A DNA stretch of 64,000 nucleotides from Tupaia tana (taxonomy: Eukaryota; Chordata; Mammalia; Scandentia; Tupaiidae). The first letter of the stretch is position 1, and each line of letters opens with the position of its first letter. A model generated the notes under the pieces. The model was not told the origin of the DNA, ran no database searches, and saw only the letters and a program-made list of their open reading frames with translations. The stretch spans positions 14,056,997 to 14,120,996 of the forward strand of contig JAKSZU010000031.1 in NCBI GenBank assembly GCA_026018925.1. The letters are read 5' to 3'. The translations under genes were made by a program, and so were the position numbers. Below are positions 12,691 to 60,400 of this stretch, piece after piece.

Positions 12691-12697
12691 TGAGGAA

Positions 12698-22044: not shown

Positions 22045-22149
22045 TAGAAGGTAAGACTAGCAATTGGGTTATGAAGCTAAGATTGTGTTAGTGTTAAGAT
22101 AATGCTCATGGGATAGGTGTTAGAAAATTGGGATGCAGTTTATTTTATG

Positions 22150-22192
22150 GTTGGGGTTAAGATCAGGGTCAGGATCAGGATCAGGGTCAGTG
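22150..22192 (+). repeat. TCAGGG/TCAGGA hexamer run in module c
   Basis: GATCAGGGTCAGGATCAGG and its continuation form about six tandem 6-bp words. TCAGGG is a known telomere-variant hexamer. Confidence 0.75.
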
Positions 22193-25144: not shown

Positions 25145-25300
25145 TAGGTAGGGGTTGAGGTTGTGTAATGGGGTTAAAGTTCAGTTGGTGTTAGTATTGT
25201 GGTTAGAGATTAGAAGTTAGGGATTGGTTTTAGAGGATTACTGATGAGATTTTGGGTTTGGGGTGGTTTCTATTATTTAAGGGTAAAGGGGTAGGGATGT

Positions 25301-30400: not shown

Positions 30401-32040
30401 CTGTAATAGAAAGCGGGTGGAGTGTTGACTCAGGTAACTGTGTCATCAGACCACATTAGAACTCATGAGCCCCTGGCCTGTTGCCATTAGAGGGAGCTCT
30501 ACCGCAAGTGACCATACAGCTTGTCCTGCACCAGAGGCAGTAGCAGCAGGGTGAGGTTGGACTTAGCTAACAGGGTCACTTGTATACATAAGAACATACA
30601 CCTCACTGGCCAATGCTGCCAGAAGGAAGTTGCCCTCAGCTAAGCACACACCTCTCACTGCACTACATCCAAGAGCAAGAGGAGTTTTAATTCAGTTAAC
30701 AGTGCCAGCAGACCACATTAGAACTAATTAAACACAGGTCTACTGTCAGCAGAGGGAGCTCCACCTCAGATAACCACATACCATGTCCTGCACAGAGCCA
30801 AGGGTTATTAGTAGGGGGAGCTTTGGCTCATCTAAGAGTGTCAGCTGATGACATTAGAACTAATGAAATACTGGGCTATGACCAGCAGAGGGAATGACCT
30901 CAGCTACCCACACACCTTTTCCTGAACCACAGCTAAGATCCAGCAGGGTGAGCTTTGACTGAGGTATCAGTGTCATCTGACCACATTAAAACCTATGACG
31001 TACTGGCTTATGGTCAGCAGAGGGAGTTCAACCTCAGTTAACTACTGACCTTTCCCAGCACCACATCCAAGAACCGGCAGGGGGAGCTTTGACTCAGCTA
31101 ATAGATTCACTAGACCACATTTGAACTTTTGAAATATTTGCCTATGAGTAGCAGAGGGAGCTAAACCTCAGCTAAACACACCTTATCCTTCAGCACAACC
31201 AAGAGCCAGAAGTGGAGACTTTGACTCAGCTAATCATGTCAGCAGACCACATTAGAACTTATGAAACTCTAGTCTATTGCCAGCAGAGGGAGCTTCACCT
31301 CAGATACCAACATATGGTTTTCTACACCACACCGAAGGGTAGTAGAGGGAGCTTTAACTCAGCTACCTGTCAGCGGAGCATATTAGCGCTAATGAATCTC
31401 TTGCTTTGGCCACTAGAGGGAGCTTAAGGGCAGGTACAAACACGCTTTATCCTGTACAACAACAAATAGAAAGGGAAGCTTTGACTCTCTTATCAGTGTT
31501 AGTTGATCACATTAGAACTACTGAAACACTGGACTATGGTCAGCAGAGGGAGCTTAACCTTAGCTAACCACACACCTTTCCTGTACCAAACCTAAGAGCC
31601 AGCAGTAGCAGGTTTAAATCAGCTAGCTGTGTCAGAAGACCACATTAGAATACTGAAATACTAGTTTATTGTCAGCAGAGGTAGCTCTACCTCAGCTAAC
31701 AACACACCTTATCTACCCCACAGCTAAGCGCCAGCAGAGGGAGCTTTGACTCAGTTAACATTGACAGTATACCACGTTAAAACCTATGAAACGGTGGCCT
31801 ATTGCCAGCAGACATAGCTCAAATGCAGGTAGGCACAGATTATAACTGCCCCATACTAGAGGGCCAGCAGAAGGAAATTTAGACTAAATAAAAAAGTGTC
31901 AACAGACCAAAATAGAGGAAATGAAACATTGACTAATTACCTGCAGAGAGAGTGCAATCTCAGCTAACCTTACAGATTTTCATGTGCAACTCAGAGGAAC
32001 CAGAAGAGAGCTTTGACACAGTTTACATGTTCAGTAAACC
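27437..32040 (+). repeat. ~132-bp tandem array with paired CTCF-like motifs
   Basis: About 34 diverged units. One unit reads CCAGCAGAGGGAGCTCAACC, then CTCAGCTAACCACACACC, CACCACACCCAAGAGCC, then a second motif CCAGCAGGGGGAGCTTTG, CAGCTAACAGTGTCAGCAG, ACCACATTAGAACTAATG and AAACACTGGCCTATTG. Well preserved motif copies: 27,437; 27,571; 28,047; 29,028; 30,276; 31,280; 31,410; 31,540; 31,731. Spacing of successive first motifs near the end is 130, 130 and 132 bp, with a second motif about 59 bp on. The motif matches the CTCF core (CCASYAGRKGGCRS) except that A often replaces the C after GGG. All copies point toward the telomere-like block. Binding is inference. Confidence 0.85.
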
Positions 32041-32265: not shown

Positions 32266-33330
32266 GGGTAGCAATAGGGTTTAGGGTTGGGAATTGGCGT
32301 TAGAGTTAGGGTTTGGTGTGAGGGTTGGGTATAGGGTTTAGGGTTAAGTGTAGGGGTTAAGGGTTGGGTTTGGATAGGGTTAAGGGGTTAGGGGTAGGGG
32401 TACGGTAAGGGGTTAGGGGTTAGGGTTTAGGGTTTACGTTAGGGTTAGGTGTTAGAGTTAGGGTACAGGTATAGTGTACGGTTTAGGGTACGGTTTTAGG
32501 GTACGGGTTAGGGTACAGGTTAGGGTACAGGTTAGGGTTAGGGTTAGGGCACGGGTTAGGGTACGGGTTAGGCTTCCAGTTAGGGCTAGGGTAGAGGTTA
32601 GGGTTAAAGTAAGGGTTAGGGTATGAGTAAGGGTACGGGTAAGAGTTAGGGTTAGGGTACGGGTTAGGGTTATGGTACGGGTTAGGGCATGGGTTAGGGT
32701 TAGGGTACGGATTAGGGTACAGGTTAGGGTTAGGGCATGGGTTAGGGTACGAGTTAGGCTTAGGGTTAGGGCTAGGGTATGGGTTAGGGTTAGAGTAAGG
32801 GTTAGGGTATGGGTTAGGTTAGAGTAAGGGTTAGGGTATGGGTTAGGGTACAAGTAAGGGTCCGGGTATGGGTTAGGGTACGGGTTTGGGTACGGGTTTG
32901 GGTATGGGTTAAGGTTAGGGAATGGGTTAGGGTATGGGTTAGGGTTTGGGTTCGGGTACGGGTAGGGTACGGGTTAGGGTTAGGGTACAGATTAGGGTTA
33001 GGTTACGGGTTAGGGTTAGGGTTTCGGTACGGGTTAGGGTTAGGGTACGGGTTAGGGTTAGGGTACAGATTAGGGTTAGGTTACGGGTTAGGGTTAGGGT
33101 TTCGGTACGGGTTAGGGTTAGGGTACGGGTTAGGGTTACAGTTAGGGTTAGGGTTAGGGTTTAGGCTTTAGGGTTTGGGGTTAGGGGTTAGGAGTTAGGG
33201 TTAGGGTTAGGGGTTAGGGTTAGGGGTTAGCGTTAGGGTTAGGGGTTACGGTTAGGGTTAGGGGTTAGGCTTAGGGGTTAGGGTTAGGGTTTAGGGTTTA
33301 GGGTTTGGGTTAGAGTTAGGGTTAAGGTCA
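32266..33330 (+). repeat. Degenerate interstitial telomeric array
   Basis: Hexamer array with TTAGGG on the plus strand. Much of it alternates GGGTTA with GGGTAC, GGGTAT, GGGCAC or GGGCAT. After about 33,150 the array shifts to TTAGGGG and TTTAGGG spacing variants. Long frames on both strands (72 codons plus, 131 codons minus, VRVRVR or TLTLTL) are artefacts of the hexamer. Confidence 0.93.
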
Positions 33331-35255
33331 GTTTGAGGGAGTAAGTTTAGGGCTACTGTTATTTTTCAGTTCAGTGTTACGGTTGGAGTTAGCGTCAGGG
33401 TCAGGTTAGGGTTGGGGTTGAGCTTAAGGTGTCCGCCTTGGGTTAGGGTTAGGTCTATGGTTTGAGTTAGGCTTCAGGTTAGGTTAGGTTTGAACTTAGT
33501 TTGAGGGAGTAAGTTTAGGGCTACTGTTAGTTATTGTTTCAGTGTTAAAGTTGGAGTTAACATCAGGGTAGGGTTAGGGTTTGGATTAAGCTTAAGGTGT
33601 CCGCCTAGGGTTAGGGTTAGGTCTATGGTATGAGTTAGGCTTCAGGTTATGTTAGGTTTGAACTTAGTTTGAGGGAGTAAGTTTAGGGCTACTGTTAGTT
33701 TTCGGTTCAGTGTTACGGTTGGAGTTAGCGTCAGGGTCAGGTTATGGTTGGGGTTGAGCTTAAGGTGTCAACCTAGGGTTAAGGTTAGGTCTATGGTTTG
33801 ACTTAGGCTTCAGGTTAGGTTAGGATTGAACTTAGTTTGCGGGAGTAAGTTTAGGGCTAATGTTAGTTTTTGTTTCAGTGTTAAAGTTGGAGTTAACATC
33901 AGGATACGGTTTGGGTTGGGATTAAGCTTAAGGTGTCCGCCTAGGGTTAGGGTTAGGTCTATGGTTTGATTTAGGTTTCAGGTTATTTTAGGTTTGAACT
34001 TAGTTTGAGTGAATAAGTTTAAGGCTACTTTTAGTTTTCGGTTCAGTGTTACGGTTGGAGTTAGTGTCAGGGTCAGGGTAGGGTTTGGGTTGAGCTTAAG
34101 GTGTCCGCCTAGGGTGAGGGTTAGGTCTATGGTTTGAGTTAGGCTTCAGGTTAGGTTAGGTTTGAACTTAGTTTGAGGGAGTAAGTTTAGGGCTACTGTT
34201 AGTTTTCGGTTCAGTGTTACGGTTGGGGTTAGCGTCAGGGTCAGGTTAGGGTTGGGGTTGAGCTTAAGGTGTCCGCCTAGGGTTAGGTTTAGGTCTATTG
34301 TTTGAGTTAGGCTTCAGGTTAGGTTAGGTTTGAACTTAGTTTGAGGGAGTAAGTTTAGGGCTACTGTTAATTTTCGGTTCACTGTTAAAGTTGGAGTTAA
34401 CGTCAGGCTAGGGTTAGGGTTGGGATTAAGCTTAAGGTGTCCGCCTAGGGTTAAGGTTAGGTCTATGGTTTGATTTAGGCTTCAGGTTATGTTAGGTTTG
34501 AACTTAGTTTGAGGGAGTAAGTTTAGTTCTACTGTTAGTTTTTGTTTCAGTGTTAAAGTTGGAGTTAACATCAGGGTAGAGTTAGGGTTCGGATTAAGCT
34601 TAAGGTGTCCGCCTAGTGTTAGGGTTAGGTCTATGGTTTGATTTAGGCTTCGGGTTAGGTTAGGTTTGCACTTAGTTTGAGTGAGTAAGTTTAGGGCTAC
34701 TGTTAGTTTACGGTTCAGTGTTACTGTTGGAGTTTGCGTCAGAGTCAGGTTAGGGTTGGGGTTAAGCTTAAGGTGTCCACCGAGGGTTAGGGTTAGGTCT
34801 ATGGTTTGAGTTAGGCTTCAGGTTAGGTTAGGTTTGAACTTAGTTTGAGGGAGTAAGTTTAGGGCTACTGTTAGTTTTCGGTTCACTGTTAAAGTTGGAG
34901 TTAACGTCAGGCTAGGGTTAGGGTTGGGATTAAGCTTAAGGTGTCCGCCTAGGGTTAGGGTTAGGTCTATGGTTTGATTTAGGCTTCAGGTTAGGTTAGG
35001 TTTGAACTTAGTTTGAGGGAGTAAGTTTAGGGCTATTGTTAGTTTTTGGTTCAGTGTTACTTTTGGAGTTAGCGTCAGGGTCAGGTTAGGGTTGGGGTTG
35101 AGCTTAAGGTGTCCGCCTAGGGTTAGGGTTAGTTCTATGGTTTGATTTAGGCTTCAGGTAACGTTAGGTTTGAACTTAGTTTGAGGGAGTAAGTTTAGGG
35201 CTACTGTTAGTTTTCGGTTCAGTGTTATGGTTGGAGTTAGCGTCAGGGTCAGGTT
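33331..35255 (+). repeat. 168-bp telomere-derived satellite, 11.5 copies
   Basis: GTTTGAGGGA (or its variants) recurs at 33,331, 33,499, 33,667, 33,835, 34,003, 34,171, 34,339, 34,507, 34,675, 34,843, 35,011 and 35,179: eleven successive intervals of exactly 168 bp with no net indel. Two sequence types alternate in part. Type A has TTCGGTTCAGTGTTACGG and GTTAGCGTCAGGGTCAGG. Type B has GTTAAAGTTGGAGTTAAC. Order is A B A B A A B' B A B' A A. 168 is 28 hexamers, and TTAGGG/TTAGGT words remain throughout. Confidence 0.95.
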
Positions 35256-35309
35256 GACTGTTAGTTTTCGGTTCCGTGTTACGGTTGGAGTTAGCGTCAG
35301 GGTCAGGTT
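35256..35309 (+). repeat. 54-bp terminal duplication of the 168-bp unit
   Basis: GACTGTTAGTTTTCGGTTCC to GTCAGGGTCAGGTT repeats the preceding part of copy 12, after which the sequence leaves the satellite abruptly at TGACAGACCACAGCC. Confidence 0.88.
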
Positions 35310-36655
35310 TGACAGACCACAGCCACAGAGGCCTGACAGGCCAGCTCACCACTGCAAAGGAAAAGCACTGTCTCCACAGTCACCAGGAGAGACAGTTCAT
35401 GTCAGAAATCCCAGGCAACACTAGCTAGAGGTCTTAAGGAGGGAGTCCACACTACCAGACTTCCGGATAGAGATTTAGACTACACTACTGAGAAGTCTCT
35501 GAGAGGTAATGTTCCGGCAGAGCGCTAGAATAAACTTGGCAGACTGGCTGGGGTTCTGGGCACAAACTCCAGAACACAGAGCATGACACAGAGCCATCTG
35601 GGGGGACTTCCAGCTGGAGCTTCAGGCTAGGGGAGAAATCTAGCCACCAAAAACCCAGAGTTCGCTTTACAGTCACCAGGAGGAAAAATTCATGGCAGAA
35701 ATGCCAGACTACAGTACCTAGAAGCCTCTGAGAGGAAGAACCCTGACAGGATGGTAGAAAACAATTCTAGAGTGGCTAGCAGAAAGCTTTCTGGGTAGAA
35801 ACACCAAATTACTCTCCCTGATGCCTCTGAAAAAATACTTTTCAATAGAACCACAACTGCACTCAGCAGAGGCATGCAAGGAATAACCTGACCAGAACGC
35901 TAGAGTTCCAGGAGTAATACTTTTGGGACAAAATGCCAGGCTCCAATACCCAGAGGTTTCTGAATTTCAGGAACAGTGCTCAGAGGACACTGGGATGGAG
36001 AATTCTGGGTAGAGCTTGAACTAATATACCTAGGAACCTGCGGGAAAAAAATTCACCTCCAAAAGCCAGAGTACATTTTCTGGAAAGATGAATTCTTGAG
36101 AGAAGTGCCAACTACACAACACAGTGACATTTGTGAAGAGAATTTCACCTGTTAGTAACAGACTCTGGGAGGTGGTCTTTGTTCCTCCAATGGACTCTGG
36201 GAGGCTGACTTTGATGTAAATCTTCGGACTACTCTACCGATGGGTGTAGGGTGGAAAACTTGCCACCAGGAAGCCAGAGGACACTTTCCAGAATAACCAG
36301 GAGGAATGATTCTGGGTATAAATGCCAAACCACACTAGTTAGTGTGCTCTCGTGGGCACACATCTGGGTAAAGATTTAGACTACACTACTCAGACATGTT
36401 TGAAAAGAAAACCTCCTGGGACCAGCAGTTAGCATAATGGCTATGTCGCTGGACTCCCACATAGCCGACCACATTTCGAGTCCCAGACGTGGTGGCGTAA
36501 ACTCACGCCAGGCGCGTGTGCGTGCATGCCCAAGATCCCGAGAGGAGAATGGAGGAGAGGGGATTGTGGTGTTGGCACCCCCCGGAGGGTGATTTCTTGC
36601 TTTCTGTCTCTCTGTCACTCTCTGTCTGTCTGGCGAGCACACACAAAAACCTCTC

Positions 36656-36696
<41 letters not shown>

Positions 36697-37784
36697 AAGA
36701 AAGAAAGAAAAAAGAAGGAAAAAAGAAAACCTCCTGAAGGAATGGCAGTATGGTTTTCCTGGATTCTCTGGGAGAAGAGTCCCTGACAGAAACACCAGAC
36801 TACATTACCCTTAGCGATCTCAGAGGGAGACTTTCAGGTAGAACTTTAGACTGAATTACCCAGAAGCCTAGGGAGGGAATCACTCTACCAGAAAGCTTTA
36901 GTGCACTTTCCAGAGGAGCCTGGAGGAAGACTTCTGTCTGAAATGCCAGATTATACTACATACAAGGCTTTGGGAGGAAGAATTCCTGACAAAACAACAA
37001 AATTTACTTTCTAGAGTGGCCAGGGGAAACTTCTAGGCAGAAATGCCAGACTACACCTCTTACTGCCTGTGAAAGAAAGATTTCCAGGTGGAATCTTTCT
37101 AAATCTACACTAAGCAGTGTTCTCCAGAAGGAATACCTCTGGCCAGAATGTCATAACACAATTCCCAGAGTCCCTGGGATTAATAATTCTGTGAGTGAGT
37201 GTTATACTTCAAAGTCCTGAGGGTTTGGGAGAATGACTTCAAGGTAGAGTAAAAATCATATGACCCAGAAGACACTGGGGAGGGAGAATTCCAGGTAGAG
37301 CAGCACTTAAAACATACAGAGGCCTGGAAAGAAATATTTTTACCACAAAGCCAGAGTACACTTTAAAGCTGCCAGGAGGAAGAATTCTGGTCAGAAACAC
37401 CAGACTACTAGCTAGAGGGCTCTAGGTTTCAGACTACACTACCCATAAATCTCTGGGAGGAAAACTTCTGGACACAATGACAGAATAAACTTTGTAGACT
37501 GGCCAGAGTAAGAGTTTTTGGCACAAACACCAGACTACATTATTGAAAGATATCTGAAACGAAAGGTTCCGGGCAGAGCTTTGACTACGTTACCCAGAAG
37601 TCTAGGAAGGAAATCTAGTCACCAGATAGCCATAGAGCTCTTCAGAGTGTTACTAGGAGGGAGAATTCAGGATGTAAATGCCAGATTGCCGTACCTACTA
37701 GCCTCTGACAGAAATAATTCTGACAGAATGACAGAATTCACTTTCTAGAGTGGCCAAGAGGAAGGTTTTTGGGCAGAAATGCCA
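35310..37784 (+). repeat. ACTACA/CCCAGA satellite, left block
   Basis: Diverged repeat of ~70-100-bp subunits with words such as GCCAGACTACACTACC, CTCTGGGAGGAAGAATTC, TTCTGGGCAGAAATGCC and AGAGTGCACTTTCCAG. A longer period of about 760-920 bp is visible when AGACTACACTACTGAG-type segments at 35,473, 36,378 and 37,435 are lined up. Some copies resemble the ZNF143/THAP11 element (ACTACAATTCCCAGAATGC). Frames inside are not conserved. Confidence 0.8.
36419..36720 (+). mobile_element. SINE-A, young, with 16-bp target duplication
   Basis: Complete copy with A box (AGCATAATGGC), CATGCCCAAGATCCCGAG body and a long A tail (about 36,656-36,695, then GAAA units). AAAAGAAAACCTCCTG occurs identically at 36,403-36,418 and 36,721-36,736. 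Confidence 0.95.
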
Positions 37785-38304
37785 ATTTGCTCTTCTCTAT
37801 CTTCTGTTGAGGTTCGATCTTCCCAATTAAATTCTGGGACATAATATTCAACTCCAGACTTGTCCCTATGATTAAGTTGGCCATTTTCTTAGTTTTTGTA
37901 CTCTTATTTCTGTGTGTCAATAATTTTCCTGGTATAGCACTCCCTTGAGAACTTCTTGGAGATCTGGTCTGGTGTTGGTAAATTCTTTCAAGTTTCGTTT
38001 ATCTAAGAATGTTCTTGTCTTTTCTTCCCATATGAAAGATAATCTTGCCAGGTACAGTATTCTTGGTTGAAATTGCTTTTCCCTTAACACTTTGAGTATA
38101 TTTCCCCATTCTTTCCTTGCTCACATTGTTTCCGATGAGAGGTCTCCTGTTAGCCTGATGGGATATCCTTTGTAGGTAAGTTGCCATTTTTCTCTTGCCA
38201 ATCTTAGTATCTTGTCTTTGTCTGTGGTTTTGGCTAATCTGACTATAATGTGTCTTGGAGAAAATCTTCTTGAGTTGATTCTATTTGGAGTCCTTTGTTT
38301 TTCT

Positions 38305-38572
38305 TTCTTTCTTTTTTCTTGGAGAGGTTTTTGCTATAGGGCGCGTGCGCTCGCCAGACAGAGTGACAGAGAGACAGAAAGTGAGAAATCACCCCCCCCC
38401 CCAGGGGGGATGGCCACGCTGCAATCCCTTCTCCTCCATTCTCCTCTCGGGATCTTGGGCACGCACGCACACACACCCGGTATGAGTTTTAAGCCACCGG
38501 GTCTGAGACGCGAACCGCAGTTGACTACGTGGGAGTCCAGCGACATAGCTATTACGCTAACTTCTGGTCCCC
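38305..38572 (-). mobile_element. SINE-A inside HAL1 ORF1
   Basis: Full-length, well conserved: GAGAGGTTTTTGCTATAGGG tail side, C-run CCCCCCCCCCAGG, head ending CTAACTTCTGGTCCC. Target duplication TCCTTTGTTTTTCTT at 38,290-38,304 and 38,573-38,587. Confidence 0.95.
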
Positions 38573-38808
38573 TCCTTTGTTTTTCTTGAAACTGGATTTT
38601 TGAGTGCCTCTCTAGGTTTGGAAAATTTTCTTGCAGGATTTCATGGAATAGATTATCAACGCCCTTATGAGTCTCTTTGCCTTCTGGAATACCAATTATA
38701 CGGATGTTTGGACATTTGATGGTATCTAGTATTTCTCATATATTATTCTCATTTTGGGGGGGCAATTTTCTCAGTCTTTGTGGTGGATTTTTCTAGGCCA
38801 GTAATTTT

Positions 38809-39066
38809 ATTTTTTGAGAGGTTTTTGCTATAGGGCGCATGTGCTGGCCAGAAAGACAGACAGAAACAGAGAGACAGAAAGTGAGAAATCACCCTCCCGG
38901 GGGGATGGCCACGCTGCAATCCCTTCTCCACCATTCTCCTCTCAGGATCTTGGGCATGCACGCACATGCGCCCAGCGTGAGTTTAAGCCACTGGGTCTGG
39001 GACTCGAAACGTGGTCGACTACATGGGAGTCCAGCGACATAGCCACTACACTAACTGCTGGTCCCC
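38809..39066 (-). mobile_element. SINE-A inside HAL1 ORF1 (second)
   Basis: Full length; head ends CTAACTGCTGGTCCCC. Target duplication AGGCCAGTAATTTT at 38,795-38,808 and AGGCCAGCAATTTT at 39,067-39,080. Confidence 0.95.
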
Positions 39067-40228
39067 AGGCCAGCAATTTTGTCCTCTACATCTGAGATTC
39101 TATTTTTTGTATTATCTAGTCTGCTTTTAATACTTTCAAGGGAGATTTTGACTTCCTGTATTATAGCCTTCATCTCTAATAGGTTCCTTTGATTATTTTT
39201 TAAAGTGTGTAATTTCTCTTTTAGATCTTGCAAAAATTTCCTCACCTCCTGGAACTGGTCAGCTCTTTTCTCCTTTCTCTTCTACAGTTCACTGTCTCTC
39301 TTCTCTTCCATCTCTGTTAGCTTTGTCATTATGAATATTCTAAATTCTTTATCAGACATTTCCATGATTTCCATTGAGCTGTCTGTGGATGAAGAGGAGT
39401 TATTCTTTTTTCTTGGAGGAGAGGTATTTTCTTGCTTTTCCATATTTCTTGTGGCCCTGTGGTGATTTCTAGTCATCTGATGGATGGTGTGTTTCTTCCT
39501 AAACTTGAAGTTTAATCTGAGCGTTCAGGAGCATGCAGAAGGAGGTGATCTGGAATCTCTTTGTCATTCCGTTTTTATCCCTTTGTGCAGCAGATTCAGT
39601 GGATATTGAGGAATATGTTAACCCTAATCTTATTTGGATGTTTGGCTATAGTTCCCTTATATCTGTCTAGAAACACAGTGAATGGAGATTGAGGAGCAGA
39701 GAGATGAGATAAAAGAAAAAGAAAAGAGAAGAGAGAAAAAACAACAATAACAACAACAAAGAAACAGAGAAAAAAAGAAGGGAAAAAAACAGATAAAAAA
39801 ACTTATTATTATTATTTTTTAAAAAGCAAAAAATTTAGCACAAGTGTGCCGCACAAAATCACTAGTTTTCAGGAGCCATGAGGAATCTTCTTCTGAAGGC
39901 CTGCCCCTTTCCTCTCTTGGGTGAGAGGGGGAGAGAGGATTATTATTTTTTTAATTTATTTTTTCATTTCATTTTCTTCCATACATTCAATCACATTATT
40001 ATTTGTCTTACAAAATGGATATTTCAACAGGTGAACACCTCTACCCAGCACCGTCAATAAAACCACGAAACATCTTCAACAGATAATACCACACCTCTTT
40101 GTGCCATTAATGCTTTTCCTCCCTGTCCCTCCCCCAAATGTCCTTCTTCAAACCCTCCTCTTTCACACACACTATATCTGGTATTTACATCTATATACTG
40201 CGTTTCTATATCCTTTAGACAATTAGTT

Positions 40229-42520
40229 TCAGTCATAGAGTGCAGGCACTCGGTATATATTAAGTGGGGACATACAATGCCTCTCCTTCATAGCATGGCT
40301 TGCTTCACTCAGCAGTAAGTCTTCCATCCACTTCCTGTCAAAAGCCAGGGTTTTTTTTTTTTTATGGATGAATAGTATTCTATTGAATATATGTGCCACA
40401 GTTTTTCTAACCATTCATCAGTTCGTGGGCATTTAGGTTGCTTCCATGACTTAGCAATCGTGAAAAGTGCCGCAATAAACATCGATGTGCAAACACTTTT
40501 CCGATAAAGTATTCTTCTGTCCTTTGGGTAGATACCAAGGAGCGGGACTGCTGGATTGTATGGTAGTTCTATTTGTAGAGTTTTGAGGAATCTCCAAATT
40601 GTTCTCCACAGTGGTTGGACCAATTTACATTCCCACCAGCAGTGTAAGAGAGTTCCCTTTTCACCACACCCTCGCTAGCACTTACCATTTTTTTTTTTTA
40701 ATCTTAGACATTCTGACTGGGGTTAGGTGATATCTCATTGTTGTTTTGATCTGCATTTCTCTTACAATGAGGGACGTTGAGCATTTTTTCATATGCCTTT
40801 TAGCTATTCGTATGTCATCTTTAGAGAGTGTTTTTTTCAACTCATTCTCCCATCTTTTAATAGGATTGTCTTTTTCAGGAACAGCTGCTTGAGTTCCTTG
40901 TGAATTTTGGTGATCAGTCCCTTATCTGACGCATAGTTTACAAAAATATTTTCCCATTCTGAGGTCTGTCTATTCACACTAAACACTGTGTCTTTTGCCA
41001 TGCAGAAATTTCTTAGTCTGATGTAATCCCACTTGTCTATTTTGGGGATTATTGACTGTGCTTTGGGAGTCTTATTTAAGAAGTCTTTCCCTACCCCAAT
41101 GTCTCCCAGAGTTTCCCTGGTGTTTTCCAGGAGCAGTTTTATAGTTCGAGGTCTTAGATTTAGATCTTTGATTCACCTTGACTTTATTTTTGTCAGAGGT
41201 GAAAGGTAGGGGTTCAGATTCATCTTTCTGCAAGTGGAGATCCAGTTTTGCCAGCACCATTTGCTGAAGAGGTTTTCTTTTTCCCACTGGATTGACTGGT
41301 ACCCCTTGTCAAAAATCAGTTGGCTATAAGTTTGAGCATTCATTTCTGGGGACTCTATTCTGTTCCATTGGTCCACCTGTCTGTTTCTGTGCCAGTACCA
41401 TGCTGTTTTGATTACCACAACTTTGTAGTATAGTTTTGTGTCAGGGAGTGAGATGCCGCCCACTCCACTCTTCTTGTTCAGAACTGCTTTGGCAATACGG
41501 GGTCTCTTATGATTCCAGACAAACTTTATGATTGTCTTTCCTAGATCTGTGAAGAATGTGTCTGGTACTTTGATTGGCATTGCATTAAATAGGTAGATTA
41601 ATTTGGGTAGAATTGCCATTTTGATTATATTAATTCTTCCAATCCAGGAACATGGGATGTCCTTCCACTTTTTTGTGTCATTTTCAATTTCTTTTTTTAG
41701 CTTCTCATAGTTTTCCTTGTGAAGGTCTTTAATTTCTTTGGTTAGATTTATCCCTAAGTATCTTACACTTTTTGTGGCTATGGTAAATGGAACAACTTTT
41801 TTCAGTTCTATCTCAGTCTGCCTGTTGTTCATATACAGAAATGCTATAGATTTCTGGATATTAAATTTGTATCCTGAAACTTTACTGTATTCATGTATTA
41901 CGTCCAGAAATTTTTTTATGGAAACCATTGGGTCTTCCATGTATATAATCATGTCATCTGAGAATAGAGAGAGTTTCACCTCTTCTTTTCCTATTCAAAT
42001 TCCTGTTATTTTTTCCTCCTTTCTGATTGCAATGGCCAGAACTTCCAGTACTATATTGAAGAGGAGTGGAGAAAGTGGACATCCTTGTCTTGTACCCGTT
42101 TTTAGTGGAAAAGCTTTCAGCTTTTCTCCATTGAGGATGATGTTCGCTAAGGGTTTTTCATAGATAGCTTTTATTGTGTTGAGAAATGACCCTTCTATGC
42201 CGATTTTGCTGAGAGTCTTGATCATGAAGGGATGTTGTATCTTATCAAATGCTTTTTCTGCATCAATTGATATGACCATATGGTTTTTATCTTTTTTCCT
42301 ATTAATATGGTGTATTACATTTATGGTTTTGCGTATGTTGAACCAACCTTGCATTCCTGGGATAAGGCCTACCTGATCATGATGTATAATATTTTTTATA
42401 AGCTGTTGTATACAATTTGCTAATATCTTGTTGAGAATCTTTGCGTCTATATTCATCAGATATATTGGTGTATAGTTTTCCTTCCTTGTCCTGTCCTTAT
42501 GTGTTTTAAGGATAAAGGTG
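40229..42520 (-). pseudogene. L1 ORF2, reverse transcriptase and C-terminal part
   Basis: ORF2p carries endonuclease and reverse transcriptase. This segment holds RT core ([40 protein letters not shown], then [15 protein letters not shown]), connection region ([35 protein letters not shown]) and the cysteine-rich C-terminus ([36 protein letters not shown]), ending PLNIYRVPALYD. The catalytic F-A-D-D box reads F-S-D-D. At least one stop near 41,990 and frameshifts near 40,620-41,170 break the frame. Confidence 0.9.
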
Positions 42521-42521
42521 G

Positions 42522-43540
42522 CCCAGAACAGCCCTTCTTCAAGAGACAGCCTGCTCCATGGCTCCTGAGATCTAGACATGCTGGGAGAAATGAAGATGTC
42601 CCACTCCTAACTGGGCCTCCAGCATACAAAACCCACGTGGTAGGAAAACCCCTTTCATATCTCCTGTCTCTGAATCAATCTTTGTCTCTCTCTACCTCTC
42701 TCTCTCTCTCTCTCTCTCTCTGTCTGTCTGTCGTCTTTTTTTTAAATTTTTGCTTTTTAGAATTTTTTAAGGTGAGGCGTCTTACAGGGCCCTTTGACCC
42801 CTCCCTCCTGGGCCCTTGTTTTGTTAATAATCCCCTCTGCTCCTCCCAGAACAGCCCTTCTTCAAGAGACAGCCTGCTCCATGGCTCCTGAGATGTAGAC
42901 ATGCTGGGAGAAATGAAGATGTCCCACTCCTAACTGGGCCTCCAGCATACAAAACCCACGTGGTAGGAAAACCCCTTTCATATCTCCTGTCTCTGAATCA
43001 ATCTTTGTCTCTCTCTACCTCTCTCTCTCTCTCTCTCTCTGTCTGTCTGTCTGTCGTCTTTTTTTTAAATTTTTGCTTTTTAGAATTTTTTAACGTGAGG
43101 CGTCTTACAGGGCCCTTTGGCCCCTCCCTCCTGGGCCCTTGTTTTGTTAATAATCCCCTCTGCTCCTCCCAGAACAGCCCTTCTTCAAGAGACAGCCTGC
43201 TCCATGGCTCCTGAGATGTAGACATGCTGGGAGAAATGAAGATGTCCCACTCCTAACTGGGCCTCCAGCATACAAAACCCACGTGGTAGGAAAACCCCTT
43301 TCATATCTCCTGTCTCTGAATCAATCTTTGTCTCTCTCTACCTCTCTCTCTCTCTCTCTCTCTGTCTGTCTGTCATCTTTTTTTTAAATTTTTGCTTTTT
43401 AGAATTTTTTAAGGTGAGGCGTCTTACAGGGCCCTTTGGCCCCTCCCTCCTGGGCCCTTGTTTTGTTAATAATCCCCTCTGCTCCTCCCAGAACAGCCCT
43501 TCTTCAAGAGACAGCCTGCTCCATGGCTCCTGAGATCTAG
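42522..43540 (+). promoter_or_regulatory. Tandem 323-bp L1 5'UTR monomers
   Basis: CCCAGAACAGCCCTTCTTC starts at 42,522, 42,845, 43,168 and 43,487 (periods 323, 323, 319; the shorter one reflects CT-run length). By eye copies differ at only a few bases plus (CT)n length. Each has CCACGTGG (E-box), a long (CT)n/(CTGT)n tract, TTTTTTTTAAATTTTTGC and CCTCCCTCCTGGGCCC. Homology with the single 5'UTR of the HAL1 (GGCTCCTGA.AACTAGTG at about 39,870) marks them as L1-type promoters. Mouse L1 is the known precedent for tandem monomer promoters. Confidence 0.85.
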
Positions 43541-43751
43541 ACATTTCTAATTTTTGATTTTTATTGAAATTTTTGAATATTAATTTTTGTTTTTTAGATT
43601 TATTCCAAAGTTTTTCTCTTCTTTTTCTCTGTTTCTTGTCTGTTTTTTGTTGTTGTTGGTATTGTTTCCCTCTCTCTGCTTCCTTTTCTGCACACTTCCC
43701 AACCCTCGTATTAATCTTCAAAAGTTCGGGAAGAAACCGACCATCCACCAG

Positions 43752-44242
43752 ATGACTAGAAATCGCTGCAGGACCACAAGAAATATGGAGAAGCAGGAAA
43801 ATGCCTCTCCTCCAATTGATACAGACAGCTCCTCTTCATCCACACACAGTTCAAGGGAATTCATGGAAATGTCTGATAAACAATTCAGATCACTCATAAT
43901 GGCAAAGCTAACAGAGAGCAAAAAGAAGAGAGATAAGGATCTGCTGAAGGGGAAGGAGAAAGGAGTTGAAGAGTTCTAGGAGGTGAGGAAATTCATGCAA
44001 GATCTAAAAGAGGAGTTTCACACTTTACAAAAGAATAAGATGGAGCTGTTAGAGATGAAGGCTATAATACAAGAAGTCAAAATCTTCCTTGAAAGTATTA
44101 AAAGCAGACTAGATCATTCAGAAAATGGAATCTCTAATGTAGAAGAGAAAATGGCTGGCCTAGAAAGGTCCACCATAAAGACTGAGATAATGGCCCAAAA
44201 CTTTGAGAATAATATGCAAGAAGTACTAGATACAATTAAACG
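43752..44242 (+). pseudogene. ORF1 N-terminus and coiled coil, RRM and CTD absent
   Basis: Starts MTRNRCRTTRNMEKQENASP, very like the HAL1 ORF1 at 39,476. Serine-rich segment, EFMEMSDKQFRSLIMAKL, then after one in-frame TAG (43,977) the coiled coil (EVRKFMQDLKEEFHTLQKNK; ELLEMKAIIQEVKIFLESIK; RLDHSENGISNVEEKMAGLE) to EVLDTIKRP. In the intact family the next residues begin the RRM (PNLRIIGIPEGEE, seen at 56,893); here the frame enters GC-rich DNA. So trimerisation could remain but RNA-binding domains are gone. The open frame runs on into the VNTR to 44,453. Confidence 0.85.
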
Positions 44243-44395
44243 TCCAGGGGCGGCAGTCAGGGGCTCCGCTCCGCGTGCCGGCGCATGGGGGTGGGGAGGC
44301 GGGCGCGGGGGCTCCACTCCATGTGCTGGGGCGTGGGGTCAGGGTGCGGGGGCCCCGCTCCACGTGCCCTTCTGGAGGTCCGGCCCTATTGGGGC

Positions 44396-44858
44396 TCTGC
44401 CCCGCGTGCCGTGGCCGGGGCTCTGCCCCCGCGTGCCGTGGCCGGGGCTCTGACCCCGCGTGCCGTGGCCGGGGTCTGCCCCGCGTGCCGTGGCCGGGGT
44501 TTGCCCCGCGAGCCGTGGCCGGGGTCTGCCCCGCGAGCCGTGGCCTGGGCCTGCCCCGCGTGCCGTGGCCCGGGCTATGCCCCCGCGTGCCGTGGCCGGG
44601 GCCTGCCCCCGCGTGCCGTGGCCGGGGCTCTGACCCTGCGTGCCGTGGCCGGGGTCTGCCCCGCGTGCCGTGGCCGGGGTCTGCCCCGCGAGCCGTGGCC
44701 GGGTCTCTGACCCCACGTGCCATGGCCGGGGATCTGCCCCGCGTGCCGTGGCCGGGGCTCTTACCCCGCGAGCCGTGGCCGGGGTCTGCCCCGCGAGCCG
44801 TGGCCGGTGCTCTGACCCCGCGTGCCGTGGCCGGGGTCTGCCCCGCGTGCCGCATCAG
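44396..44858 (+). repeat. CpG-dense ~25-bp VNTR
   Basis: About 17-19 units of the type GCGTGCCGTGGCCGGGGTC plus TGCCCC, with 25- to 28-bp variants (CTCTGACCCCGC, GCGAGCCGTGG). CpG dense, strong contrast with AT-rich flanks. Long frames on both strands (195 and 227 codons) are repeat artefacts. Placed like the VNTR of SVA. Confidence 0.93.
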
Positions 44859-45238
44859 CTGATGGCCATCTCTGCTTCCCTGAGCCGCGTTCCTGAAACT
44901 GTGTTCCATGGAGATTCACCTACATTTGCGGGGCTGCACGAGACCCACCCTTGGTCCAGCCCTGAGTGGAGTCTACGTTCCCTATTGTTGGGAACTTTAT
45001 GATATGATAATTGGAAAAAAAAAATCATGTTTATCATAAAAAATAATTAGAATAATAATAATAATGATTGGGGGATACATAGGAAAGATATTGAATGTTG
45101 AAGTGGGGAGATTAATGTCTCTGTACTGACTGACATGCATGGCATTCCCTTTTGAAAAAGCAATGTCATACACTGTAAAGTTATATGTAATTCAATGTAA
45201 CAAAAAAATGGATAATAATAAAAAAAAAGAAAAAAAAA
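44859..45238 (+). mobile_element. 3' domain of the composite element
   Basis: CCGCATCAGCTGATGGCC, CCATGGAGATTCACCTAC, TGTTGGGAACTTTATGAT, then AT-rich sequence and GCATGGCATTCCCTTTTG before the A-rich tail. It matches neither the L1 3'UTR (61,309-61,575) nor the HAL1 3'UTR (62,477-63,229) by eye. Origin unknown. Confidence 0.6.
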
Positions 45239-45252
45239 AAAGGATAAAGGTG

Positions 45253-46198
45253 ATAGAGACTTCATAGAATGAATTAGGGAGAGGGTCACCCTTTTGGATC
45301 TTTAGAAATAACTCGAGCAGAATGGGGGTTAACCGTTCTTTGAAAGTTTTGTAGAATTCAGAGGTGAAGCCATCAGGGCCAGGGCTTTTCTTTGTTGGGA
45401 GGTTATTTATAACTGATTCGATCTCCTGGCTTTTTATGGACCTAATCATACTTTCTCTATCCTCTTGGCTCAATCTAGGTAGATTATACGTGTCCAGGAA
45501 TTTGTCCATCTCATCCAGATTGTCTTGTTTCTTGGCATATAGTTGTTCATAGTATCCTCTAATGATGTTCTGTATTTCTACTTTGTCTGTTGTTATATTT
45601 CCTGCTTCATTGCAGATTTGATTCACCTGGTTCTTTTCTCGCTTCTTCTTAATAAGTCTCGCTAGTGGCGTATCAATTTTGTTTATCTTTTCAAAGAACC
45701 AGCTTTTACTTTCATTTATCTTCTGTATAGTTCGTTTATTTTCTATTTCATTTATTTCTGCTCATATCTTTATTATTTCCTTTCTCCTGGAGTTTTTTGG
45801 ATCTTTTTGCTGTTGCTTTTCCAATTCTGTGAGGCATAATGTTAAGTGATCCATTTGCCTTCATTCCATCTTCCTCTTATGTGCACTAATTGCTATGAAC
45901 TTCCCTCTTATGACTGCTTTAGCAGTGTCCCAAAGGTTATGGAAACTCATGTCCTCATTGTCATTGGTTTCCATGAACCTTTTTATTTCAGTCTTTATTT
46001 CTTCAGTAGTTGTGGAGTCATTCAGGAGTAGGTTGTTAAGTTTCCATGTATTTGAGTATTTTTGAGGATTTCTCTTGAAATTAAACTCAAGTTTAATTCC
46101 ATCATGGTCAGAGAAGATGCTGGGTATAGTTTCTATGCCTTTGAATCTGTAGAGGCTTGCTTTGTTCCCATTGATGTGGTCAATCTTCGAGAATGTTC
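45253..46198 (-). pseudogene. L1 ORF2, end of endonuclease to start of RT
   Basis: Minus-strand frame includes [40 protein letters not shown] and [18 protein letters not shown] (RT entry motif). Upstream it carries the [14 protein letters not shown] linker region and stops matching ORF2 at 46,198, where CCAGGGGTCGAAAGATGGG begins. Confidence 0.88.
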
Positions 46199-46690
46199 CA
46201 GGGGTCGAAAGATGGGAGTGGGGTGTCTGTAGGTCTAATGGCCTTCCTATGTGCTAGTGAGAAGAGAGAAATTTATAAATGAAAGAAGAGGAGAAGGAGA
46301 AAAAAAAAGTGTACCTGGCTGACAGAGGGGTTTCTGGCTTGGGGGTCCTGGGGCTGGAGCTTCAGGGGTCAGTCCTCCCTCACAATTCCTGGCCCAGGGG
46401 TCGAAAGATGGGAGTGGGGTGTCTCAGAGAAAGGATTATTAACAAGATAAAGGAGGGGCTGAAAGCTGAGAAAATACTTTACTTTAAAATTTTTTTAAAG
46501 GAAAAATTACTACAAAATGAGAAGACAGAGACAGAGGCAGAGAGAGACAGAGACAGAGAGAGACAGAGAGAAGGCTGAGGGGCTTCCTAGCACTCAAGTT
46601 TGTGGGCTGGAGGCTGAATTATCAGTAGAAAATCTTAATTTCTCTTTTCCCCCTGAAATCACTAGTTCTCAGGAGCCATAGAGGAGTCTG
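46199..46690 (-). promoter_or_regulatory. L1 5'UTR with a repeated 31-bp segment
   Basis: CTAGTTCTCAGGAGCCATAG near 46,660 is the same 5'UTR word as at 39,870. A purine-rich (GACAGA)n tract lies at 46,518-46,573. CCAGGGGTCGAAAGATGGG with its following bases occurs at 46,199 and 46,394, 195 bp apart, consistent with two partial monomers of another monomer type. Confidence 0.6.
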
Positions 46691-48580
46691 GAATTTTTTT
46701 TAAAGAAATGCTAGACTATACTACCTAGAGGGCTGTAGGAGGGAGACTTCTTGGTAAAAAGTTAGACTACATTATCCAGACTTTTCTGGGAAGAAAGTCT
46801 CCAGAAATAATAACTTTTCTAACTTTCCTGTATTCTCTGGGGGAAGACATCCTGGAAAAAACCAGACTACATTACCCAGAGCCATCTTAGAGGAGGAATT
46901 CTGGGTAGAGCTTTAGACTGCATTACCTAGAGCTTAGGAAGAAAATTTAGCTACTACCAGAAAGCTGGAGTGCACTTTCCAGAGGAAACAGGAGGAAGAC
47001 TTCCGGGCAGAAACACAACCACACTGCCAAGTAGGCTTTGGGGACAGGAATTCCAGACAGAATGATGGCATTCACTTCCCAGAGAGGACAGGGGAAGTTT
47101 TCTAGGCAGAAACACCAGACTACACCATTCATAGGCCTGTGAAAGAAAAATTTCTATGTGGACCACAGAATACACTAACAAGTGGCCTCAGAAGGAAAAC
47201 CTCTGGCCAGAATGCTATAATGCAATTCCCAGAGACCCCGAAGGCAGTAGCTCTGATGGGGAACCTCAGACTTCAAGACCCCAAGTCTGCCGGGAGTGTG
47301 ATCTCGGACAGCGCCACAACCACACTACCCAGAAGACACTGGGTAGACGACTGCTGGGGAGAACTTCAACTACAACACAAGGCCCTAGAGAGAAAAACAC
47401 GTCCCCAGAAAGCCAGGGTATGCTTTCCACAGCCACTGGGAGGAAGAATTCTGGTCAGAAAAACCAGACTACACTAGCTAGAGGCTTTAGGAGGAAAATC
47501 TGAGTAAAGATACAGACTACATTGCCCAGAATTCTCTGGGAAGAAAACATCCACAGAGAACAACAAAATAAATTTCCTGGACTGTCCAGAGGAACAGTTC
47601 CAGGCAGATTCACCAGATATATTACACAGAGACATCTGGGAGAAAGACTTTTTTTGGGTGGAGATTCATATTACCTTACTCAGAGGCACAGAGAGGAAAT
47701 CTACCACCAGAAACTCAGAGTGCACTTCACAGTGTCACTAGGAGGGGGAAATTGTGCTGAGTCACCAGACTCCACTACCGGGACTCTGAGGAAGGCTTCC
47801 TGGAGAATGGCAGAGTACCCTTCCTGGAGTGGTTCACATGGGGCTTTCTGGGCAGAAATGCCAAATTAAGCTACCCTGATGCCTTGGAAAAAATATTTCT
47901 GTGTAGAATTACAGACTATGCTAACCAGAGGCACCCAGAAGGAAAACTTCTGACCAGAATGCACTTTTCACAGTCCCTGGGAGAAATATTCCAGGGACAA
48001 AATACCAGACTCCAAAACTCAACGGCTCCTGGGAGCAAAAATTCCATGTACTGGCAAAAACTATAATACCCCAAAGATACTGGGAATGAAAATTCTGAGT
48101 AGAGCTTCAACTGAAATACCTAAAGGGCTCTGGCAAGAATTCGCCACCCTAACTCCAGAGTACATTTTTCTCAGTTGCCAGGTGGAGGAATTCTGAGCAG
48201 AAAGGCTGGACCTCACAGCACAGCGGTGTTTCTGAACAGAAGTTCCAACTAGTGACAAAGACTGCACTACCAAGTGAGCTCTGGGTGGTCAACATGGAGG
48301 TAAGGCTTTAGGGGACACCACTCACAGAGGTAGGGAGGAAAACCAGCCTCCAGAGAGCCAAAGGACAGTTTCCAGAATCACCAGGAAAAAGAATTCCTGG
48401 CTTAAACACCAGTCTACGCTAGCTAGTGGGCTCTCGGAGAACCCCTCAAGGGGAAGATCCAGATCACACTACCTCCCGAGATCGTCCCGGGAGGAAAACT
48501 TCTAGAGAGGATGAATGAATATACTCGCTAGACTGCCAGGCGAGAGATTCTGGTAGCAACACCAGACGACATCACCTTTA
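46691..48580 (+). repeat. ACTACA/CCCAGA satellite, right block
   Basis: Continuation of the left block. TTCCTGTATTCTCTGGGGG and the following ~1 kb (46,825-47,870) line up with 36,760-37,780; 47,510-48,480 line up with 35,470-36,400. ACTACATTGCCCAGAATTC at 47,516 is the best ZNF143-like word (16 of 19 positions). Confidence 0.8.
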
Positions 48581-52152: not shown

Positions 52153-52186
52153 GACCTCAGTTTCTCTAACTGTAAAAATGGGATTG
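52153..52186 (+). mobile_element. MIR core fragment
   Basis: GACCTCAGTTTCTCTAACTG and TAAAAATGGGATT match the conserved MIR 3' core (CCTCAGTTTCC..TCTGTAAAATGGGG). Confidence 0.65.
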
Positions 52187-52463
52187 GGGGACCAGCAGAT
52201 GGTGTAGCAGTTATGTTGTTGGACTCCCACCTGGCTGACCATGGTTCGAGTCCCAGACCCAGTGGCTTCAAAGTCATGCCGGGCATGTGTGTGTGCATGC
52301 CCAAGATCCTGGGAGGAGAATGGGTGACAGATTGCAGCGTGGCTATCCCCTCTGGGGTGGGTGATTTCTCACTGTCTCTGTGTCTCTCTCTCTCCAGCAA
52401 GTGTACATGCTCAAAGGCAAAACCTCTCAAAGAAACAAATGAAAAAAAAAAAAAAAAAAAAAA
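52187..52463 (+). mobile_element. SINE-A, best preserved tRNA head
   Basis: Reference copy. A box TGGTGTAGCAGTTATG, exact B box GGTTCGAGTCCC (about 52,243), CATGCCCAAGATCCTGGG body, CT-rich run and an A tail of about 22. Pol III boxes mean it could be transcribed. Confidence 0.93.
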
Positions 52464-53178
52464 GGGACCATGGGCAGCACCATGCCAAGGCTGCTCACAA
52501 GGAGGAGCTGTGCCATTATGGAGTGGTCTTCACAGCTCAGGGATTCTGGCCCTGCACAGGTGATGAGATTCCATCCTTCAGAGTGGCCATCAGGATGATG
52601 GCAGACACAAGAGACCAGCTGACCTAGCCAAGGTACTCTAGCTCCTTCCCAGTACCTGGACAAGCCCAAGTCACCTATGCTCTGGTCTCCCTGCTCTGGC
52701 CATGTATGTGGTGTCCACTCCACCGTGCCCCATACAGAGCCTGTGTGGGGCTGGCTGGGACATGAGGGTGCCACATGGCATCCCACATACTGTGTGGCAT
52801 GTCCTGATGCACATACTGTGCAGTTTCTGGGGGGTCTTCACCAGCAGCCTCCAAGGTCTAGAGCTCACCCAGGGTCAGTCTTTGTCCACTGGTGGTCAGT
52901 GCTGCCCTTCCAGCAATTTTTCTAAAAAAGAGCCAAATGTTCCCAGTACACAACTTACTTTGGGAGAGCAGTATGGTGAAAAAGCAGGTGTCTATCCAAG
53001 GTTCTAGACTCTTGAGGAACATGATGTGTCCTTGGGCTTTGCTGTAATAGAAAGTCTACAAATTGAGCTTGATGGAATCAAGTTAAATACCTGCCCATCA
53101 AACACAGGATCCTTGGTCACTTAAGGATACCACAGGGTTGCCATCAGAAAAACATGAAGTACAAAATCCTAGACAAGA
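52464..53178. other. Low-copy sequence, nothing recognised
   Basis: Overlapping frames of 82-119 codons on both strands lack domains. Confidence 0.5.
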
Positions 53179-57447: not shown

Positions 57448-60400
57448 ATGGCCAACTTAAATGTCAGGACAGATCTGGTAACATCGATAATAACATTTAA
57501 TGTGAATGGATTAAATTCTCCAATCAAGAGACACAGACTGACTGAATGGATAAAAAAAAAGAAACCCTCTATCTGTTGCCTACAGGAAACCTACCTCATG
57601 GATAAAGACATACACAGACTGTAAGTGAAGGGTTGGAAAAAGGTTTTCCATGCAAATGGGAACCAAAAAAGAGCTGGAGATGCGATACTAATTTCTGACA
57701 AAATAGGCTTTAAAACAAAAACTGTTCGAAGAGACAAAGTAGGGCACTATATTGTAGTAAAAGGATCAATAGATCAAGAAGATATAACGCTTATAAGTAT
57801 CTATGCTCCTAACACAGGAGCACCAAATATGTGAAGGAAAGACTGTTAGATCTAAAAGGGAAGATAGACTGCAATACACTAATTGTTGGAGACCTCAACA
57901 CTGCACTAACTGCACTATCCCCTTGGGACAGATCATCTAGACAAAAAATAGATAAAGAGATAAAGGATCTGAATGATACCATAAATCAAATGGACTTAAC
58001 AGACATCTATAGAACTGTCCATCCAAAAACCACGAGATATACTTTTTTCTCACCCCCACATAGAACCTTTTCGAAAATTGACCACATAATAGGGCACAAA
58101 GCAAGCCTCTACAGATTCAAAGACATAGAATCTATATCTAGCATCTTCTCTAACCATGATGGCATTAAACTTGAGTTTAATTTCAAGAGAAATCCTCAAA
58201 AATACTCAAATACATGGAAACAAAATAACCTACTTCTGAATGACTCCACAACTACTGATGAAATAAAGACTGAAATCAAAAGATTCATGGAATCCAATGA
58301 CAATAAAGACACAAGTTTCCATAATCTTTGGGACACTGCTAAAACAGTCATAAGAGGGAAGTTCATAGCAATTAATGCACATAAGAGGAAGGCGGAAAGA
58401 AGGCAAATGGATCACCTAACATCATGCCTTAGAGAATTGGAAAAGCAACAGCAAAAAAATCCAAAAAAACTCCAGGAGAAAGGAAATAATAAAGATATGA
58501 GCAGAAATAAATGAAATAGAAAATAAGTGAACTACATGAAAAATAAATGAAAGTAAAACCAGTTCTTTGAAAAGATAAACAAAATCAATACACCACTAGT
58601 GAGAGTTATTAAGAAGAGAGAAAGGAACCAGGTGAATCAAATCTGCAATGAAGCAGGCAATATAACTACAAAGTAGAAATATAAAACATCATTAGAGGAT
58701 ACTATGAACAACTATATGCCAAGAAACAAGACAATCTGGATGAGAAGGACAATTTCCTGGACACATATAATCTACCAAGATTGAGCCAGGAGGATATAGA
58801 AAGTCTGAATAGGCCTATAACAAGTCAGGAGATTGAATCAGTAATAAATAACCTTCCCACAAAGAAAAACCTTGGCCCTGATAGCTTCACCTCTGAGTTC
58901 TAGAAAACTTTCAAAGTAGAGTTAACCCCCATTCTGCTCAAGTTATTTCTAAAGATCCAAAAGGGTGACTCTCTCCTTAAATCAGTCTATGAAGCCTCTA
59001 TCACCCTTATCCTTAAAACACATAAGGACAGGACAAGGAAGGAAAACTATACACCAATATATCTGATGAATATAGATGCAAAGATTCTCAACAAGATACT
59101 AGCCAATTGTATCCAACAGCTTATAAAAAAGATTATACATCATGATCAGGTAGGTTTTATTCCAGAAATGCAAGGTTGGTTGAACACATGCAAAACCATA
59201 AATGTAATACATCATATTAACAGAAAGAAAGATAAAAACCATATGGTCATATCGATTGATGCAGAAAAAGCATTTGATAAGTTACAACATCCCTTCATGA
59301 TCAAGACTCTCAGCAAAATCGGCATAGAAGGGTCATTTCTCAACACAATAAAAGCTATCTATGAAAAATCCATAGCAAACATCATCCTGAATGGAGAAAA
59401 GCTGAAAACTTTCCCACTAAAAACAGGTACAAAACAAGGACGCCCACTTCCTCCATTCCTTTTCAATATAGTACTGGAAGTCCTCACCAACGCAATCAGA
59501 AAAGAGGAAAAAATAAAAGGCATTCAAATAGGAAAAGAAGAGGTGAAACTCTCTCTATTCTCAAATGACATGATTGTATACATAGAAGACCCAATGGTTA
59601 CCATGAAAAAATTTCTGAAATTAATGCACTAATACAGTAAAGTTGCAGGATACAAAATCAATATACAGAAATCTATAGCATTTCTATATACAAACAATAG
59701 GCAGGCTGAGATAGAACTGAAAAAAGTTGCTCCATTTACCATAGCCACAAAAAGTATAAAATACTTAGGAATAAATCTAACCAAAGAAGTTAAAGACCTT
59801 CACAAGGAAAACTATGAGAAGCTAAAAAAAGAAATTGAAAATGACACAGAAAAGTGGAAGGACATCCCATGTTCCTGGATTGGAAGAATTAATATAATCA
59901 AAATGGCAATTCTACCCAAATTAATCTACGTATTTAATGCAGTGCCAATCAAAGTACCAGACACATTCTTCAAAGATCTAGAAAAGACAATCATAAAATT
60001 CGTCTGGAATTATAAAAGACCCTGTATTGCCAAAGCAATTCTACACAAGAAGAGTGGAGTGGGTGGCATCTCACTCCCTGACCGAAAAATATGCTACAAA
60101 GTTGTGGTAATCAAAACAGCATGGTACTGGCACAGAAACAGACATGTGTACCAATGGAACAGAATAGAGATCCCAGAAATAAATTCCCAAGCATTCAGTC
60201 AACTGATTTTTGACAAGGGGTACCAGTCAATCCAGTGGGAAAAGGAAAACCTCTTCAGCAAATGGTGCTGGAAAAACTGGATTTCCACCTACAGAAAGAT
60301 GAATCTGAACTCCTACCTCTAACCTTTGACAAAAATCAAGTCAAGGTGGATCAAAGATCTAAATCTAAGACTTCAAACTATAAAACTGCTCCTAGAAAAC

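Follow-up and report, generated by a model that had tools for sequence, protein, structure and literature searches.

What is a 2.7 kb insertion that starts with L1-type promoter monomers, runs through a broken L1 open reading frame 1 (ORF1) and ends in a GC-rich variable number tandem repeat (VNTR) followed by a separate 3′ domain? The element in question lies on the + strand, at 42521-45239, of a 64-kb stretch of Tupaia tana DNA (contig JAKSZU010000031.1, positions 14,056,997 to 14,120,996), which is called the window here. It had been predicted, from the letters of the window, to be an SVA-like composite retroelement, and we asked whether it belongs to a family and how such a family might move. 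Our analysis indicates that the element very probably belongs to a young and dispersed family of non-autonomous composite retrotransposons, putatively mobilised by L1 in trans. We favour this reading because, in the copies read, the modules follow one order, the target duplications are of L1 type and differ from copy to copy, poly(A) tails are present, one member is 5′ truncated, a dead ORF1 is shared, splice-like joins occur and divergence is low.

Copies in the host genome

The original prediction proposed a genome search with the junction between ORF1 and the GC-rich segment, expecting many copies with different target duplications. Positions 44190-44400 (211 bp, spanning this ORF1/GC junction) were used as a query against the host assembly of 2.948 Gb. 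Scoring covered 40 of 1169 first-look candidates, the window copy included, making the copy count a lower bound; the copies were ranked by likeness to the window copy, and older members may be missing. The junction is spanned in 40/40 scored candidates at 96-100% identity (39 over 211 bp and one over 210), and the expectation of many copies was thus borne out.

Twenty of the 39 other scored copies were fetched and read (labelled L009-L028), resulting in 21 copies with the window copy. The GC-rich lead-in, the VNTR and the 3′ domain follow each other in identical order in all 20. VNTR length varies between 100 and 2006 bp across these fetched copies; in most of the 21 copies the first and last VNTR units are near-constant and the total length is variable, with a deviating VNTR 3′ end in the window copy, L009, L016, L023 and L027. 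At the extremes, L012 and L028 have nearly no monomer DNA and L027 has over 4.1 kb of it.

Structure of the window copy

The features of the window copy and its insertion site are as follows.

42508..42520, no strand: left target-site duplication AAGGATAAAGGTG, preceded by TTTT; 13-bp identity to 45240-45252
42521, + strand: extra G joining the target duplication to the first monomer; T occupies the internal monomer joints
42522..43486, + strand: three L1-type promoter monomers of 323, 323 and 319 bp (Tandem Repeats Finder, alignment)
42963..43172, + strand: 210-bp GT...AG stretch in the array, one of three; other copies lack it in their short monomers, and it is read as an intron of the RNA
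43487..43544, + strand: 58-bp partial monomer (alignment)
43545..43751, + strand: L1 5′ untranslated region (UTR) proper, resembling L1 5′ ends in the window and in copy L026
43752..44246, + strand: ORF1 N-terminus and coiled-coil region, 495 bp, non-coding, with TAG at 43977-43979; stops at the edge of the RNA-binding domain
44247..44390, + strand: GC-rich introductory segment of degenerate repeats, 76.5% GC
44391..44852, + strand: VNTR of 25-27-bp units, 462 bp; 17 full units and a final partial one
44853..45215, + strand: 3′ domain, 363 bp; 96.7-98.9% identity in 20/20 fetched copies
45216..45239, + strand: AATAAA (45217) and poly(A) tail (sequence reading)
45240..45252, no strand: right target-site duplication, identical to the left one
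39933..46198, − strand: older host L1 (ORF2) split by the element (alignment within the window)
59002..59014, − strand: uninterrupted site in a paralogous L1 (alignment of the joined flanks)

The target duplication is exact over 13 bp and fails to extend to 14 bp. The extra G at 42521 is what we take to be typical of a cap-derived G in L1-type insertions. When the flanks of the element are joined, they match window positions 59421-58562 (minus strand) at 91.7% over 867 bp; the empty site visible in the window is paralogous, not orthologous. By eye, a 31-bp direct repeat (46198-46228 and 46394-46424) surrounds an insert of ~165 bp adjoining the 5′ end of the host L1. Inside the element, similarity to L1 ORF1 stands at 82.6% over 476 bp and then 79.6% over 103 bp, and since it ceases at 44246, the ORF1/GC junction is placed at 44246/44247. 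The VNTR has a GC content of 81.8% and an observed/expected CpG ratio of 0.87, against 0.20 for the whole window. Hence, the predicted anatomy holds: an insertion exactly bounded by its duplication and poly(A) tail, a host L1 ORF2 with a visible, continuous empty copy, tandem 323-bp monomers, and a CpG-dense VNTR. The predicted ORF1 coiled coil needs a qualification: the segment is similar to L1 ORF1, but it is non-coding in the copies read. The extra G, the in-frame TAG at ORF1 codon 76 and the AATAAA at 45217 go beyond the prediction.

Hallmarks of L1-type mobilisation

Target duplications were testable in 19 of the 21 copies, with L023 (N gap) and L027 (array exceeding the fetched piece) excluded. 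Exact matches of 13-19 bp lie beside both ends in 18 of the 19, and L009 has one of 8 bp; the 18 duplications all differ in sequence, as the prediction of a family had anticipated. The 13-bp duplication of L012, AATAATTATTTTC, was spotted by eye and then located. In the set without L012, the first base is A in 15 of 17 duplications, in keeping with L1 endonuclease sites. L028 is 5′ truncated inside ORF1. The traits of L1-dependent retrotransposons (short target duplications, poly(A), dispersed copies and different flanks) are therefore all found here.

L010 carries a 3′ transduction and a second poly(A) ahead of its target duplication (~6746-6902, element strand), which offers a handle on its source locus. 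L017 carries the first bases of the same transduction after its 3′ domain, and L014 is without it. Diagnostic substitutions are common to L010, L014 and L017, which points to a probable common source copy for the three.

ORF1 state and age

A TAG stop at ORF1 codon 76 is present in 19/19 in-frame copies (L013 has a −1 frameshift and L028 is without the region), so the family is non-autonomous. In Pfam, the L1 RNA-binding domain begins at residue 63 of the relative P0003; the ORF1 of the element terminates at residues ...DTIKRP, the edge of this domain, and the RNA-binding and C-terminal domains are therefore absent. From the window copy alone, we infer that ORF1 was dead before the window insertion: few substitutions separate its monomers, private residue differences amount to 15/149 in the element versus 27/639 pooled in six L1 ORF1 relatives, which may be from other species (p 0.008), and the element-only changes are spread over codon positions 1, 2 and 3 as 14, 7 and 11. 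The stop at codon 76 shared among the copies bears this out.

A comparison of copies for age had also been proposed. Non-CpG differences from the majority number 68/11699 in ORF1 and the GC-rich segment (20 copies) and 33/7397 in the 3′ domain (21 copies), and this divergence of 0.45-0.58%, in a sample ranked by likeness, indicates a young family. CpG differences number 14/800 and 7/252, respectively. Pairs of copies differ by 1.15% on average (20 copies, 190 pairs), and by 0.71% when 17 of those copies are compared; a more divergent group, with four variants in common, is made up of the window copy, L009 and L016.

Splice-like joins and 5′ ends

As for the RNA INTERMEDIATE, units of 113/114 bp are interspersed with long monomers in many copies. 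The short unit of L009 equals the 323-bp unit minus exactly 210 bp, with bounds GTG/GTAGGA and CCCCTCTGCTCCTCCCAG/AACAGCC; in other copies the length of the long unit varies in a CT run, and the same joins occur with ATG before the break. A single donor (GTG or ATG/GTAGGA) is joined to four acceptor positions, in 31, 7, 3 and 1 joins, where the second acceptor lies 5 nt downstream of the main one and the third and fourth lie in the 5′UTR. Such a join is present in 15/21 copies, and 57 donors and 57 acceptors are left unspliced. The third acceptor aside, the joins have what appears, from their sequence, to be the pattern of RNA splicing, which argues for an RNA intermediate. Some short units may have been multiplied later by unequal exchange.

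The 5′ ends of the copies suggest where this RNA would begin. Among 18 ends lying in a monomer, 10 fall at monomer positions ~23-29, within ~7 bp, a cluster which we read as a putative transcription start rather than random truncation. A single extra G stands before the element in 8/21 copies, including the window copy; two copies have T and one has GTG. Between the array and the 5′UTR, L009, L012, L023 and L027 carry the whole of a 26-bp GC palindrome (CGCGCGGCGCGCTAGCGCGCCGCGCG). Nine copies (L010, L011, L013, L015, L016, L019, L021, L024 and L026) have it in shortened or altered form, and the window copy, L018 and L025 are without it; it is not assessable in L014, L017, L020 and L022 (UTR joined to a monomer) or in L028 (truncated). 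The palindrome is possibly a deletion hot spot.

Proposed mechanism

RNA polymerase II would start inside an L1-type monomer, at ~23-29, and the resulting RNA would sometimes be spliced between monomers and polyadenylated at its own 3′ AATAAA. The ORF2p of some L1 would then copy this RNA into DNA at a nick made by the L1 endonuclease. The length of the VNTR would shift from copy to copy, with both of its ends staying near-fixed. The least certain step is the origin of the lineage, in which an L1 transcript cut within ORF1 was probably joined, by template switch or insertion, to a VNTR-plus-tail of other origin.

Alternative explanations

The origin of the VNTR and the 3′ domain is where the best-surviving alternative comes in. 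Here, both would be the 3′UTR of the active L1 subfamily, and an internal deletion running from ORF1 to the 3′UTR would have given rise to a non-autonomous but otherwise pure L1 family, an account that we regard as unlikely. The 5′ half of the element is L1, and the tail ends in an L1-like AATAATAAAA, which we take to resemble human L1. Furthermore, passages of PMC5753468 describe replacement of L1 UTRs by unrelated sequence. The 3′ domain was aligned to three L1 tails in six alignments, of which one (score 35) beat all 300 shuffles; we judged this probably to reflect A-richness. The other five were at shuffle level. All three L1 3′UTRs in the window have 34-38% GC, 0-4 CpG and no VNTR, and an L1 3′ end beside L026 is, by eye, also without VNTR or 3′ domain. 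These L1s are all older than the family, and comparisons with them are not decisive against the deletion. Apart from matches via its A-rich tail, the 3′ domain has no other match in the window with E <0.001; the weaker ones are all short and include an L1 3′ tail (E 0.002).

Other searches gave little. Splicing was considered for the ORF1/GC junction and rejected, as two aligned L1 copies read CCAAAC there, with no GT donor. No match to the element was found in plasmids, viral contigs or prokaryote genome contigs, and protein searches with the VNTR/3′-domain frame and the VNTR frame gave no matches. Rfam at gathering scores and a tRNA search found nothing, and Pfam found no domain on four frames of the element. 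The frame covering ORF1 and the GC-rich segment retrieved six short L1 ORF1 relatives, and in the five that reach or pass the coiled coil there is no continuation into the GC-rich frame. For the VNTR and the 3′ domain, a source outside L1 is likely rather than proven.

It is highly improbable that segmental or satellite duplication of DNA, instead of retrotransposition, dispersed the copies. It would account for L014 and L017, which show no difference in 989 aligned bases and whose VNTRs are equally long, but these two have different target duplications, 18 of the 19 testable copies have their own, and splice-like joins occur in 15 of the 21. The copies also differ in their flanking DNA, which speaks against a shared duplicated segment. 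A HAL1-type half-L1 supplying its own ORF1p, to which the retained L1 5′UTR and ORF1 start might point, is refuted for the copies read: their ORF1 does not extend into the RNA-binding domain, and the in-frame ones all carry the TAG. A single rearranged L1, or one-off chimera, is ruled out by the 40 scored copies and by the different target duplications of those that were testable.

Several observations weigh against a young, L1-mobilised composite family. As a control, flanks of different copies match over at least 12 bp in 8/342 pairs, in A-rich sequences; because mismatched A-rich flanks also give such matches, the duplications of L019 and L025 are weak when taken singly. In L013, L015, L017, L018, L024, L025 and L028, 2-6 bases of the duplication may be the first bases of the element, so that the lengths given are upper limits, with at least 10 bp remaining. 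The third acceptor (3/42 joins; L014, L017 and L020) is without AG where readable, and the window copy has no spliced unit and begins at monomer position 1. Folding of the VNTR RNA was no better than that of shuffles (z −0.35; 4/20 shuffles folded as well). Finally, the likeness ranking biases the estimates of age and uniformity to the branch of the window copy.

Surroundings in the window

The window runs to the very end of the contig, so that a degenerate TTAGGG-type array at 32275-35309, which grades into a 168-bp satellite, lies ~29 kb from the contig end. Upstream, 11500-27500 holds diverged tandem copies (~64-68% identity, commonest spacing near 3.85 kb), with telomere-like GGGTTAG runs in both stretches read and CTCF-like motifs in some copies. 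At 27524-31812 there is an array of 130-134-bp repeats carrying CC(A/G)GCAG(A/G)GGG(A/C) motifs, which occur 9 times on the + strand of the window (8 of them at 27437-31731) and 0 times on the − strand, and which presumably resemble CTCF sites. Copies of a 260-bp tRNA-like short interspersed element (SINE) with a CT-rich 3′ part are found at 38280-39080, 36400-36740, 52170-52480, 6000-7140 and 480-780; we know of no family that matches it. Two 1-kb stretches, 36755-37788 and 46824-47867, are 69% alike and contain further internal repeats.

Comparison with known systems

To our knowledge, the architecture of this element is known only from SVA-type elements of apes. Passages of PMC4432496 describe VNTR composites as hominoid-specific and, to the knowledge of its authors, as the only non-LTR (long terminal repeat) retrotransposons with complex internal tandem repeats; macaque SVA2 is mentioned there as well. 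In the literature matches listed, titles and abstract openings name no VNTR composite outside primates. An uncharacterised consensus of the element may already exist in Repbase or Dfam.

The predicted SVA-like logic is recognisable. Like LAVA, SVA, PVA and FVA, as portrayed in sections of PMC4432496, the element is non-autonomous, has L1-type insertion hallmarks and places a central GC-rich VNTR with conserved ends before a distinct 3′ domain, a likeness of layout. The 3′ domain of the hominoid families is SINE-R, U1-AluSz-U2-L1ME, PTGR2 or FRAM. The same sections report conserved end units and a variable middle for the VNTR of SVA and LAVA. Spliced forms (in part of PMC6139936) and transduction (in part of PMC12593883) are described for hominoid composites too. 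In contrast to LAVA, SVA, PVA and FVA, the element is without a CT-hexamer/Alu-like 5′ domain and has L1 monomers, a 5′UTR and a broken ORF1 instead; as that shared 5′ region is absent, it is not a member of SVA/LAVA. Its VNTR units are 25-27 bp, versus 30-50 bp in hominoid composites, and its host window has no Alu match: an Alu 23-mer, allowing ≤3 mismatches, gave 0 matches in the window, and one B1 piece was also absent from it. Together with the tRNA-like SINE, these absences argue against an ape or mouse-like rodent host.

Among L1 derivatives, HAL1 is likewise non-autonomous and has ORF1 sequence, but it encodes ORF1p according to passages of PMC5753468, whereas the ORF1 here is truncated, stopped at codon 76 and followed by a VNTR and a new 3′ domain. 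SpIREs of human L1 have also lost introns from the 5′ region of integrated copies (PMC5860796, in part). They are generally dead ends in that account, while the spliced copies here lie within an amplified family, and monomers are cut down by splicing, in L009 from 323 to 113 bp.

Apparently, the VNTR-composite architecture has arisen here a second time and independently. Independent evolution is likely, a judgement that stems from the lack of an Alu/CT-hexamer module and of any Alu match in the window rather than from comparison with SVA sequence. On balance, we think it probable that this second origin took place in a non-ape mammal, is recent and perhaps still active, and combines an L1 leader carrying a dead ORF1 with a promoter array that changes as the element's own RNA is spliced from one monomer to another. 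The same architecture built from other modules makes 'why a VNTR?' a comparative question. Traits common to both families (a GC-rich VNTR with fixed ends, L1-type mobilisation and non-autonomy) likely matter for mobilisation, and those not common to both (the Alu-like region and SINE-R) would not be required for it. In addition, the family serves as natural evidence that a retrotransposon can have its 5′ end reshaped by splicing from one promoter monomer to another.

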